A DNA stretch of 64,000 nt from Caulobacter sp. RHG1 (lineage in GTDB: Bacteria > Pseudomonadota > Alphaproteobacteria > Caulobacterales > Caulobacteraceae). The stretch lies in NCBI RefSeq assembly GCF_013181195.1, contig NZ_SMZP01000007.1, positions 124,001-188,000 of the forward strand, written 5' to 3'. Each line of letters begins with the position of its first letter. Within the stretch, counting starts at the first letter, position 1. The position numbers and the translations under genes are program-made. Positions 1 through 32,089 of the stretch are shown piece after piece. Under the pieces are notes generated by a model that did not search any database, was not told the DNA's origin, and worked only from the letters and a program-made list of their open reading frames with translations.

Positions 1-396
1 GAGAGCCGCGCCCTCGGCGCCGACGCCATCCTGGTCATCCTGGCGATGATCGACGATGTCCTCGCCGCCGAACTGATGGCCGAAGCCAAGCGCCTGGGCA
101 TGGACGCCCTGGTCGAGGTGCATGACGAGGCCGAAATGGCCCGCGCCGGCACCCTGGGCTCGGATCTGGTCGGGATCAACAACCGCGACCTCAAGAGCTT
201 CGTCGTCGACCTGGCGGTCACCGAGCGGCTGTCGGCCCAGGCTCCGGCCGGCGCCCTGCTGGTCACCGAGAGCGGCGTCTTCACCCACGAGGACGTCGTG
301 CGGATGGAGAAGACCGGCGCCAAGGCCATGCTGGTCGGCGAAAGCCTGATGCGCCAAGCCGACGTCACCGCCGCCACCAAGACGCTGATTGGCTGA
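1..396 (+). CDS. trpC: Indole-3-glycerol phosphate synthase, C-terminal part (5' end outside window)
   Basis: This is the last 131 codons of TrpC, the tryptophan-pathway enzyme that closes the indole ring of CdRP to give indole-3-glycerol phosphate. The frame is open from base 1 and stops with TGA. Hallmarks of the C-terminal half of its TIM barrel are visible: LVEVHD, then GINNRDL, then TESGV, and finally MLVGESLM, the phosphate-binding loop of the last strand. The family is about 260 residues long, so roughly half is missing upstream. The likely trpD neighbour lies outside the window. The next gene starts 86 bases downstream on the same strand. Confidence 0.95.
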
Positions 397-27410: not shown

Positions 27411-30400
27411 CTACACGTCTTCCAGCAGCGCCACCCCCGGCGCGGTCTTCAATGCGCCTCGCAGCGCCGCATCAAGGGTGTAGCGCCCCGGCAAGCGCAG
27501 CTCGATCTCGCGACCGCCGCCAATCGCGGCGACAAAGGTCACCTCACCGCCCTTCTGGCCCTGGGCAGGCTCAAGGCGACGCTTCAGCGCCTCCATCTCG
27601 GTCGCCGACGGCGACAGGTGAACGCGCAGACCGGCCACGACGTTCTCGATGGCCTTCTCGATCGGCTCGGCATCGTCGCCGAAGAAGCGAACCTCGCCGT
27701 CGCGCGCCTTGGCGCGAACCTTGATAACCACGGCCTTGCCCGGCTCCAGCACATCGCGGCACTTCCGCAAGCTCTCTGGCGGGAACAATACCTCGTATTC
27801 GCCGGACGGGTCCGACAGCGACACGAAGGCGAACTTCTCACCGCTCTGCGATGCGCGCTCCTGGCGGCGCCGCACGACACCGCACATGCGCAGCGCCTCC
27901 ATGCCGGCCTCGGCTTGGGCCATGGCCTCGGTCAACAAGGCCACGCGCTTGCGGCGCAGCATGCCGACCACATCCTCCAGCGGGTGACCGGTCAGGTAGA
28001 AACCGACAGCCGACAGCTCCTCGTCCAGCAGGTCGACCTGGTTCCAGTTCTCGGTCTTGGCCAGGCGAGGACGGCCAGCGCCCGGATCCGAACCGAACAG
28101 GCCGCCCTGCCCGCCCTGGCGGTCGGCATGGCAGCTCTGGGCGTGGGCGATCAGCACGTCGGCCGAGGCCACGATCTGAGCGCGGTTCTTGTGAATCTGG
28201 TCGAAGGCCCCGGCCCGCGCCAGGTTTTCGATAGCGCGCTTGTTGACCTGCTTGGGATCGATGCGCTCGACGAAATTGAAGATGTCGCGGAATGGCCCGC
28301 CCTCTTCACGGACGGCCACCAGATGCTTCATAGCCTCCAGGCCCACGTTGCGGATGGCGCCCAAGGCGTACAGCACCTCACCGTTCTCGACCTCGAAGTC
28401 GGCGCCGGAGACATTGACGTCCGGGGCCCGGACATTGATCTCGAACTTACGCGCGTCCTGATGGAAAACGGCCAGCTTGTCGGTGTTCGACAAGTCCAGG
28501 CTCATCGAGGCGGCAAAGAACTCGACCGGCGTGTTCGCCTTCAGCCAGCCCGTCTGGTACGAAATGAAGGCGTAGGCGGCGGCGTGCGACTTGTTGAAGC
28601 CATAGCCGGCGAACTTGGCCACGAGCTCGAAGATCGATCCCGACTGTTCCTCGGGAACGTTCTTTTCCTTGGCCCCGGAGACGAAACGGATCTTCTGGAG
28701 ATCCATCTCCTCCTTCTTCTTCTTACCCATGGCGCGACGCAGAAGGTCAGCTTCACCCAGGCTGTAGCCCGCCAGGATCTGGGCGATCTGCATCACCTGT
28801 TCCTGGTAGACGATGACGCCGTAGGTCTCCTTCAGCACCGTTTCCAGCGACGGGTGCAGGGTGTCGACGGGCTTTCGGCCGAACTTACAGTCGACGAAGG
28901 TGTCGATGTTATCCATCGGGCCAGGCCGATAGAGCGAGATCAGCGCGGTGATCTCCTCGATCGAGCCGCAGCGCATCTTGCGTAGGGTGTCGCGCATGCC
29001 CTGGCTTTCCAGCTGGAACACACCGACCGTCTGGCCCGAAGCCAACAGCTCGTAGGTCTTGGTGTCGTCGAACGACAACTTGCCCAGATCGACCTCGAAG
29101 CCGCGCTTCTTCAGATGCTTCACCGCCCGGTCCAGGACGGTCAGAGTCTTCAGGCCCAGGAAGTCGAACTTCACCAGGCCGGCGCTCTCGACCCATTTCA
29201 TGTTGAACTGGGTGGCCGGCAGGTCCGAGCGCGGATCCTTGTAGAGCGGAGTCAGCTGGGTCAGCGGCCGGTCGCCGATGACCACGCCGGCGGCGTGGGT
29301 CGAGGCGTTGCGGAACAGGCCTTCAAGCTGCAGGGCCACATCCAGACAGGCCGAGACGTTGGCGTCTTCCTTCTTGGCCTGCTTGAGGCGCGGCTCGAGA
29401 TCGATGGCCTGGGCCAGGGTCACCGGCGCGGCCGGGTTGTTGGGCACCATCTTGCAGAGACGGTCGACCAGACCCAGCGGCAGCTGCATCACCCGGCCGA
29501 CGTCACGCAGCACGGCGCGCGCCTGCAACGAACCGAAGGTGATGATCTGGGCCACGCGATCGCGGCCGTACTTCTCCTGAACGTAGGAGATCACCTCTTC
29601 GCGTCGCTCCTGGCAGAAGTCGACGTCGAAGTCGGGCATGGAGACCCGCTCGGGATTGAGGAAGCGCTCGAACAGCAGGCCGAAGCGCAGTGGGTCCAGG
29701 TCGGTGATGGTCAGCACCCAAGCAACCAGCGAGCCGGCGCCCGAACCCCGCCCCGGACCGACCGGAATGCCGTGGGTCTTGCCCCACTTGATGAAGTCCG
29801 AAACGATCAGGAAGTAGCCTGGGAAGCCCATCTTCTTGATGATGTCGAGCTCGAACTTGAGCCGCTTCCAGTACTCGTCCACGGGCGCGGCCAGGGTCAG
29901 GCCATCAAGCCGCATACGCAGACCTTCTTCAGCCTGGTGCGTCAGCTCCTCACCCTCGTCGCGGCCGTCGCCGGTCGGGAAGCGGGGCAGGATGGGCGCG
30001 CGCTTGTGGACCATGAAGGCGCAGCGGCGGGCGATATCGAGGGTATTGTCGCAGGCTTCCGGCAGGTCGGAGAACAGCTTGCGCATGTCAGCCGCCGGCT
30101 TGAACCAGTGCTCGGGCGTAACGCGGCGACGTTCGTCCTGGCCGACGAACGAGCCGTCGGAGATGCACAACAGCGCATCGTGGGCGTCGTAGAAGCCTTC
30201 CTTGACGAAATAGACGTCGTTGGTGGCGACCAGCGGAACATCGTGGTCATAAGCCCAGTTGACCAGGCCCGGCTCAGCCGCCGCCTGCTTGGGCAGCCCG
30301 TGGCGCTGCAGTTCGACATAGAAGCGGTCGCCGAACACCCGCTGCATTTCGGCCAGGGCGGTCGATGCCTCGGCGGTCTTGCCGGCGGCGAACAGCGCGT

Positions 30401-30842
30401 CGACCGGACCGTCCGTGCCGCCCGATAGCAGGATCAGGCCCTCGCTATATTCGATGACCTTGGCCCAGGGCACGATCGGCTCGGGCAGTTCGGCGCTGTC
30501 GAGATAGGCGATCGACGACAGCTCGGAGAGATTGAGGTAGCCCTGTTCACTCTGGGCCAGCAGCATGATCGTCGGCGCCCGAGCCCAGCGCTCGGTCGGG
30601 CCGCCGCCGATGCCGGTGATAGGAATGGCGCAGCCGATGATCGGCTGGACCCCCGCATCCTTGGCGTAGGACGAATATTCCAACGCCCCGAACAGATTGG
30701 CGCGGTCGGCGATGCCCGCCGCCGGCATGCCCGCAGCGGCGGCGAGCTTGCCGATCTGATCGGCCTTGATGGCACCTTCCAGCAGCGAATAGGCCGAACG
30801 GACCCGCAGGTGGACGAAGCCCTGTCCTTCCGCGTCCGCCAT
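27411..30842 (-). CDS. dnaE: DNA polymerase III alpha subunit
   Basis: Replicative polymerase, 1143 residues. The order is PHP domain (1-275), C-family catalytic core with the metal-binding [12 protein letters not shown] (near residue 400), tandem helix-hairpin-helix, OB fold (about 990-1070, [16 protein letters not shown]) and C-terminal tau-binding domain. In the PHP domain the usual HLHVHSEYS is HLRVRSAYS, so two metal-binding His (residues 13 and 15) are Arg, and a proofreading role there is unlikely. ATG 30842 is chosen from GGAGGA upstream and conservation; the frame is open for 25 more codons. It follows sidA by 47 bases. Confidence 0.96.
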
Positions 30843-30889
30843 GACCGATCCTCCGCTACGCCTGTCGACAGACAGGCCTTCTACATGAT

Positions 30890-30979
30890 TCAGGCCACGA
30901 GCTGGGCGACCGTGCACATCATCCAGACGAAGCTGGCGACCGACACAAGGGCCAAAGACTCACGCGCGATACGGATCAT
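30890..30979 (-). CDS. sidA: SidA, SOS-induced cell division inhibitor (29-residue membrane protein)
   Basis: A 29-codon gene on the minus strand: ATG at 30979-30977, TGA at 30892-30890, with GGAGGT 4 bases before the start. The peptide begins [12 protein letters not shown] and ends VAQLVA. A charged N terminus (two Arg, one Glu) is followed by a hydrophobic helix of about 20 residues that could cross the inner membrane. In Caulobacter crescentus SidA is a 29-residue inner-membrane protein made in the SOS response that binds FtsW/FtsN and stops division. Size, membrane helix, the perfect LexA box and the dnaE neighbour all fit. I had no reference sequence to align, so identity rests on these points. 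Confidence 0.85.
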
Positions 30980-31007
30980 CGGAACCTCCACAGATTTCTT
31001 GTTTTGT

Positions 31008-31043
31008 TCCATATTCCGCTTTTGTTCTGTTCACAAGATGTTC
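31008..31043 (-). promoter_or_regulatory. sidA promoter with perfect LexA (SOS) box
   Basis: GTTC-ACAAGAT-GTTC at 31029-31043 is an exact GTTC-N7-GTTC box. On the minus strand a -35 TTGTGA (31036-31031) lies within it, and after 17 bases comes TATGGA (31013-31008) as -10. LexA binding would therefore cover the -35. The box ends 49 bases before the sidA start and 86 bases before the divergent nucleoside hydrolase start, so it might also affect that gene. Confidence 0.82.
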
Positions 31044-31129: not shown

Positions 31130-32089
31130 ATGCGCTTGATCATCGATACTGACACTGCTGGCGACGACGTCTTCTCGCTGATGCTGGCTCTCACCCGACC
31201 CGGCGTCACGGTGGAGGCCATTACCATCGCCCACGGCAATGTCGGCTTCGTCCAACACGCCGAGAACGCGCTGGTCACGCTGGATCGCTGCGGCAAGGGC
31301 GACCAGGTTCCGGTCTATCTCGGCGCTCAAGCGCCGTTCAGCCGCGCGCCACTGGATGCGGCCTATGTGTTCGGCCACGACGGCATGAGCGACAGCGCCT
31401 TCGCCAAGGCCGCTCAGCGCCCCGCCGACGGCCACGCGGTCGACGAACTGGTGCGGCGGATCATGGATGCGCCCGGCGAAATCACCCTGATCGCTCAAGC
31501 GCCTCTGACCAACATCGCCCTCGCCTACCTGCGCGAACCACGCATCGCCAAGGCCCTGAAGCACCTGTGGGTGATGGGCGGCACGGACAATGGGGTCGGC
31601 AACGTCACCCCGGCGGCCGAGTATAATTTCTATGTCGATCCCGAAGCGGCCAAGATCGTCGTCAACGCCGGTTTCAACCTATCGATCGCCACCTGGACGC
31701 TGACGCTCAAGGACGGCCTCTGGAGCGGCGCGCAGTTGGCCGAACTGGAAGCGCTGGGCACAGACAAGGCGCGCTTCTTCACCGATGTGAACCGCGCCTC
31801 TCTGGCCTTCGCTCGCGAGACTGAAGGCCTGGACGGCAGCTTGCACCCCGACGCCCTCACCTGCGCCATCGCCCTGGACGAGAGCCTGATCCTCGAGGCC
31901 GAGGACTGCGTCGTGGACGTCGAGACCATGGGTGAGCTGACACGTGGATATTTGTCGGTGTCGCACTCGATCCTGCCTGATATCGAGATCGCAGATCCAG
32001 CGCTGAAACGTCGACTACCCAACGCAAGAGTCGTCAAGAAGATCGACCAGGCTGGGTTCTTCGCCGCGATGAAGACTGCGCTGCTTTAA
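31130..32089 (+). CDS. Nucleoside hydrolase (IunH/RihA family)
   Basis: A 319-residue inosine-uridine-preferring nucleoside hydrolase. It cleaves the N-glycosidic bond of ribonucleosides for salvage. The calcium-binding signature DTDTAGDD is at residues 6-13, the loop AHGNVG follows, and NFYVDPEAAKIV and the later Asp-rich C terminus (DALTCAIALDES) fit the family. The base preference cannot be read. ATG 31130 opens the conserved sequence; the frame is open upstream without similarity. It is divergent from sidA and precedes an outer-membrane protein by 35 bases. Confidence 0.88.
   Translation: MRLIIDTDTAGDDVFSLMLALTRPGVTVEAITIAHGNVGFVQHAENALVTLDRCGKGDQVPVYLGAQAPFSRAPLDAAYVFGHDGMSDSAFAKAAQRPADGHAVDELVRRIMDAPGEITLIAQAPLTNIALAYLREPRIAKALKHLWVMGGTDNGVGNVTPAAEYNFYVDPEAAKIVVNAGFNLSIATWTLTLKDGLWSGAQLAELEALGTDKARFFTDVNRASLAFARETEGLDGSLHPDALTCAIALDESLILEAEDCVVDVETMGELTRGYLSVSHSILPDIEIADPALKRRLPNARVVKKIDQAGFFAAMKTALL

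Follow-up and report, generated by a model that had tools for sequence, protein, structure and literature searches.

Which product, if any, is encoded by the short minus-strand reading frame between dnaE and a perfect LexA box in the 64-kb window, i.e. the whole stretch of Caulobacter sp. DNA that was analysed? The original prediction held that it is sidA, the gene of an SOS division inhibitor. The frame runs over exactly the 29 codons that had been claimed, plus a TGA stop (30979..30890, minus strand), and a ribosome-binding site, GGAGG (30985..30989, minus strand), is placed 5 nt 5′ of its ATG; similar sites are seen by eye in relatives of the gene. A charged N terminus and one membrane helix had likewise been described, and the peptide indeed starts with MIRIARES and continues as a single hydrophobic stretch, its 29 amino acids holding one hydrophobic helix that passes the 17-residue hydrophobicity threshold. 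Directly downstream, 47 nt after the stop codon, follows dnaE (27411..30842, minus strand; start taken as the ATG at 30842), which encodes the alpha subunit of the replicative DNA polymerase III, and the perfect box, GTTCACAAGATGTTC on the plus strand, stands at 31029-31043, in agreement with the arrangement originally described. An in-frame ATG at 31012 would yield a product of 40 amino acids; this candidate was rejected because the codon sits inside the predicted -10 element (31013-31008), and 29 amino acids are thus the likelier product.

The NCBIfam equivalog model NF033228.1 (div_inhib_SidA) matches the peptide over 29/29 positions with 74 bits, more than double its curated cut-off of 35 bits, and Pfam gave no family for the peptide at E<=0.01. 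Judged by its sequence, the gene is SidA, already known in kind, which bears out the proposed identity. SidA of C. crescentus, as represented by NF033228, shares with the window gene the length of 29 residues, the full-length model match, the LexA box and the single helix; the two were compared through this model rather than through the NA1000 peptide, and no difference at the sequence level was found. Among 41 distinct relatives from two genera, pN/pS is 0.24 in the sidA frame vs 0.90 and 3.05 when the two remaining frames are read, and this selection in frame supports a real coding gene. The value of the result for the window itself is one of annotation, in that usual gene calling passes over a known checkpoint gene of such small size.

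Small hydrophobic ORFs are common, and a perfect LexA box alone is unremarkable (2 observed in 64 kb vs 1.88 expected from shuffling). The sidA frame might accordingly be a chance frame, with the box serving the divergent nucleoside hydrolase gene (31130-32089) that adjoins the LexA boxes and whose start codon at 31130 is 86 nt from the end of the box. The NF033228 match is decisive against this explanation, to which we assign a negligible chance, and the coding selection argues in the same direction, as does the lack of a second such combination: box, ribosome site and small hydrophobic ORF coincide in 5/2544 overlapping 400-nt segments on both strands, all five being sidA, and under the rule used the combination occurs nowhere else in the window.

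A promoter is predicted upstream of the gene, with a -35 element TTGTGA (31031..31036, minus strand) 17 nt before a -10 element TATGGA (31008..31013, minus strand). Three LexA-like sites are stacked on it, all on the minus strand: the perfect box GAACATCTTGTGAAC (31029..31043) overlaps the -35 element, an imperfect box GAACAAAAGCGGAAT (31013..31027) occupies the spacer between -35 and -10, and another imperfect one, GAACAAAACAAGAAA (30995..31009), covers the expected transcription start. By eye, the spacer box has a counterpart throughout the family, and many loci of other genera have a perfect counterpart of the third box. In three groups of the family, the promoter pattern (TTGnnn-16..18-TAnn[AG]n) occurs in 43/46, 17/19 and 25/25 promoters vs 7.9% of letter shuffles. 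At least two LexA-like boxes, for which GAACN7GAAC was allowed a single mismatch within the second half and which are judged by sequence only, are present in 45/46, 19/19 and 25/25 of these promoters vs 0.06% of letter shuffles. Outside the family the promoter pattern is weaker (10/24 in family f4 and 9/24 in family f5 of the same order, 5/27 in other orders, letter shuffles again 7.9%), and two or more boxes are found in 18/24, 21/24 and 4/27 promoters, respectively.

A perfect box that covers the -35 element is present in 20/39 loci of the window's genus vs 0/56 other loci of the family, and because of this distribution it looks like a gain within part of the genus. The operator set of the window gene thus includes a box that just part of its genus has, whereas the two imperfect boxes in the spacer and at the start look like the older, family-wide ones. 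The perfect box of the original prediction is present alongside two further operator-like sites, and its distribution makes it unlikely to be the ancestral one of the three. At the level of sequence, the one perfect and two imperfect predicted boxes point to LexA control of the sidA promoter. About 97% of the SOS promoters of C. crescentus have a single box, and sidA is an early SOS gene there, with a promoter activity above that of uvrA, according to the available text of a 2025 study (PMC12700426). With several predicted LexA sites stacked on it, a strong promoter could be tightly repressed.

The gene, the selection on its codons, its family, the anatomy of its promoter and its synteny are established in the present analysis. 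We estimate a probability of about 95% for the combined reading that 30890-30979 is sidA, with a LexA-switched promoter, a messenger that carries sidA first and probably extends into dnaE, and a peptide that holds back the divisome at FtsW and FtsN. Upon DNA damage, RecA would become active, and LexA would be cleaved and leave its operators, which cover the -35 element, spacer and transcription start of a single promoter. The resulting messenger would carry sidA first and then dnaE, the two genes sharing one transcript probably by read-through from the sidA promoter. The 29-residue SidA would insert into the membrane as one helix whose short and charged N-terminal end probably lies inside. Within the assembled divisome it would act on FtsW (and FtsN), such that septal wall synthesis may be held back until repair. 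Induction and the targets FtsW and FtsN are carried over to the window gene from work in C. crescentus. There, SidA is a DNA-damage-induced division inhibitor, a 29-amino-acid protein of the inner membrane that acts on FtsW, binds FtsN to some extent and leaves FtsZ ring assembly unaffected (PMC4211646, available text), and the filamentation of a lexA mutant is due to sidA (PMC12700426, available text). The term dnaE is absent from the main text of these two Caulobacter SOS papers (PMC4211646, PMC12700426).

The proximity to dnaE allows for another explanation, by which the micro-ORF would be a leader peptide or attenuator that tunes dnaE, the LexA box would induce the polymerase, and the membrane helix would be incidental. 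The gene lies directly before dnaE in 95/95 loci of the family, and in some loci of family f3 and in L337 a LexA-like box precedes dnaE with no hydrophobic ORF in between, both of which speak for a regulatory leader. Selection acts on the amino acids, however, the lineages retain a helix bordered by an acidic residue, and the spacing to the dnaE motif varies from 39 to 254 nt; moreover, SidA is an established division inhibitor (PMC4211646, available text). A GC-rich hairpin without a T run (GCCTGTC-TGTC-GACAGGC, 30860-30877) lies between sidA and dnaE of the window and was rejected as a conserved attenuator, being present in 1/90 family loci, the window's own. We regard a mere leader peptide as very unlikely, and retain the reading of the gene as sidA in what follows.

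Within Caulobacteraceae, the window peptide matches 343/390 genomes at the loose limit of E<=10. NF033228.1 is above its cut-off in 43/398 sampled genomes of the order, all 43 of them in the window's family; on 14 named control genomes the model gives matches in seven, Caulobacter vibrioides among them, and we infer that this species is the one control genome that passes the cut-off. The 95 family loci mentioned above comprise 70 collected by SidA match and 25, from genus g4, collected by dnaE. The dnaE start motif is found downstream of the sidA stop in all of them, at a distance of 39-254 nt in 90/90 loci and of 51-141 nt in five further ones. Loci L032, L037, L043, L050 and L066 are included in the synteny and -35-box counts and are outside the pN/pS and model sets, and L040 is a duplicate of L025. 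In genus g4, a relative of 28-29 amino acids precedes dnaE in 25/25 genomes. The sidA genes of g6 (L055-L069; most of those listed) and g4 (L122-L146; one representative tested, 26.5 bits) are below the cut-off of NF033228.1, and automatic annotation will therefore miss them.

Does the arrangement extend beyond this family? As the sequence of SidA changes fast, the survey was anchored on dnaE. The gene was located in 158/160 genomes, of which at least 125 do not belong to the window's family, and upstream DNA was taken from 60 of these 125, hand-picked from four families of the order (f4 25, f5 25, f3 5, f2 5). In a second set, dnaE was located in 131/142 genomes, and 80 were taken from the 129 that fall outside the window's family, hand-picked with a tendency towards larger genomes. 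The layout of a LexA box, a single-helix ORF of ~25-46 amino acids and dnaE is present in 25/25 genomes of f4, in 24/25 of f5 and, partly judged by eye, in 14/80 genomes of the class that belong to other orders; it is absent in f2 (0/5) and f3 (0/5), both thinly sampled. Under a strict rule, which demands a perfect box 15-80 nt ahead of a hydrophobic ATG or GTG ORF of 22-40 amino acids with a ribosome site, at most 400 nt from dnaE, the layout is accepted in 43/100 loci (f4 16/25, f5 19/25, f2 0/5, f3 0/5, other orders 8/40) vs 0/100 reverse strands and 0/5000 dinucleotide shuffles. The fuller counts of 25/25, 24/25 and 14/80 add imperfect boxes, longer distances and lower hydrophobicity by eye and include the weaker cases L256 and L199; start codons are uncertain for the longer ORFs, e.g. 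L167, L169, L188 and L281-L283. By reading, the apparent end of an ABC-type ATPase gene takes the place of the nucleoside hydrolase gene before dnaE or the micro-ORF slot in g4, in f2 and in some f4 loci.

Among the best 80 of 586 matches of a dnaE scan in named loci, 18 have the layout. They include two Rhodobiaceae bins and the Hyphomicrobiales Tepidicaulis marinus, Ancylobacter polymorphus, A. aquaticus and Kaistia soli, as well as a Sneathiella bin, a Sneathiellales bin and further bins assigned to Bauldia, Maricaulis, Oceanicaulis, Rhodospirillales, Caulobacterales or left unclassified. In Kaistia, TTGACG is followed four bases on by GAACAAAACGTGAAC. The layout is absent in those loci of Rhodobacteraceae, Azospirillum, Bartonella, Skermanella and Pelagibius that are within the best 80 of 586, two Rhodobacteraceae loci having just 556 and 208 nt of upstream DNA and belonging to the seven of 80 with less than 800 nt; it is also absent in L324, one of three loci titled Rhodobiaceae. 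Four of the 18 (L322, L333, L338, L340) were assigned to the window's order, either through their names or because their peptides resemble those of f4, and Maricaulis, which NCBI places in Maricaulales, is counted with the window's order. The named set and the other-order set partly overlap (L284 = L187, with the same peptide).

In the groups tested, namely f4, f5, g4 and the two SidA genera, the reading frames are under protein selection, with pN/pS of 0.22-0.60. In-frame values are 0.22 and 0.56 for two f4 groups, 0.33 for f5, and 0.34 and 0.60 for g4, and out-of-frame values in these groups range from 0.90 to 4.10; in the two weakest, 0.56 compares with 1.06-1.39 and 0.60 with 0.96-1.11 out of frame. 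Related sequences in the pN/pS, homology-model and promoter counts are not independent events. Side by side with these loci, three f3 loci (L108, L110, L111; one perfect and two imperfect boxes) and a Methyloceanibacter bin (L337) have LexA-like boxes immediately in front of dnaE but lack a hydrophobic micro-ORF. Possibly, the peptide was lost in these four and SOS control of dnaE was kept; since the box persists there in the absence of the ORF, this control may matter by itself.

Are these micro-ORFs, then, of common descent with SidA? We lean towards the view that SidA is one named branch of an old alphaproteobacterial set of LexA-switched division inhibitors, single-helix peptides of ~25-46 amino acids in the dnaE leader, which would put division arrest and the supply of replicative polymerase on one promoter. 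Size, helix position and an acidic helix border are common to the lineages. Ahead of the helix, the final polar residue is acidic (D or E) in 74/75 unique slot peptides (54/55, and 20/20 added later) and in 48/48 SidA peptides of the family outside g4, and in 0/17 of g4, where N or H takes this position; among 128 decoy ORFs, 71 have such a border, and it is acidic in 26 of the 71. A homology model was built from the 48 family and 17 g4 peptides, and each of the 75 slot peptides was compared with 500 versions of itself in which N terminus and helix had been shuffled. The model recognises 20/75 at p<=0.05 and 13/75 at p<=0.01, the latter comprising f8, f14, Rhodobiaceae/Tepidicaulis, Ancylobacter, Kaistia, L256 and three of f4.

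Alternatively, the ORFs outside Caulobacteraceae might be separate inventions, unrelated membrane peptides that emerged more than once downstream of an ancestral LexA operator before dnaE, short hydrophobic peptides arising easily. The Caulobacteraceae-only model misses 14/24 f4 peptides, 17/27 of other orders and 24/24 of f5 (0/24 recognised) at p<=0.05. In a pooled iterated test against 128 real ORFs (137 minus nine, of which eight were SidA copies absent from the gene list and one was a slot peptide of f5) and 2200 composition-matched shuffles, 2/55 peptides, from f8 and f14, outscore every decoy in the first round; five f4 peptides and one of f125 do so in later rounds, and those of f5 never. 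With a first-round success of just 2/55, this general model was rejected as proof of homology everywhere. Against repeated invention stand 10/27 peptides of other orders and 3/24 of f4 recognised at p<=0.01, including f8, f14, Ancylobacter, Kaistia and Tepidicaulis, along with the features common to the lineages, and for the Ancylobacter peptide SidA is the sole model reported among 18,950 NCBIfam models, though below its cut-off (E 0.067). We consider separate origins rather unlikely as a general account, and prefer shared descent: several lineages probably have a common origin with SidA, which is unproven for the remaining ones. Of ten representatives compared with NF033228.1, eight of them from outside the family, three match, all with less than 35 bits and two of the three from the window's family, so that the ORFs outside Caulobacteraceae fall below curated membership in NF033228. 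A SidA-like action outside Caulobacter is a prediction.

If this broader reading of the micro-ORFs holds, Hyphomicrobiales (Ancylobacter, Kaistia, Tepidicaulis) would gain an SOS division inhibitor, as would Sneathiellales and the families that are sister to Caulobacteraceae, and Rhodobacteraceae and many others would need another one. The search anchored on dnaE exposes candidate inhibitors, each encoded by ~30 codons behind a predicted operator, in orders for which none is named in the available text of the literature searched; that literature likewise describes neither SidA relatives outside Caulobacter nor an SOS micro-ORF before dnaE, an earlier mention being possible. Should FtsW be the target of these peptides, as for SidA, they would form a natural series of minimal FtsW inhibitors. 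With this layout also comes the question of why a peptide for division arrest should be coupled to the gene of the replicative polymerase.

Other known division inhibitors provide points of comparison. YneA, ChiZ and SosA of Gram-positive bacteria are larger than SidA and unrelated to it, and SulA of E. coli is unrelated to it as well. Like SidA, YneA, ChiZ and SosA are damage-induced small membrane inhibitors, and low-confidence models put all four on FtsW TM7, with SidA predicted on the face opposite to the other three (PMC13396833, available text). SulA is LexA-controlled like SidA but blocks FtsZ polymerisation (PMC4211646, available text). DidA of C. crescentus resembles SidA as a small membrane inhibitor directed at the same late divisome proteins (PMC4211646, available text). 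Unlike SidA, DidA is SOS-independent and works through FtsN.

Carriage of SidA by mobile elements was considered and rejected: 48 pattern matches in viral contigs yielded no confirmed case and there was no phage match, and the one plasmid match (E 4, Streptomyces) was taken as chance. One genome of the window's genus carries a second SidA-like peptide, beginning RLIRETLAFAAAATFVWAVC (L376, G235:C3:315105-315185, minus strand), with no GAACN7GAAC box within 130 nt upstream. Finally, the SidA model weakly matches (E 0.03-0.05) a helix in an ORF of 451-515 amino acids about 2 kb upstream of sidA in G330:C2, G353:C65 and G299:C22, which probably reflects a chance likeness of membrane helices.
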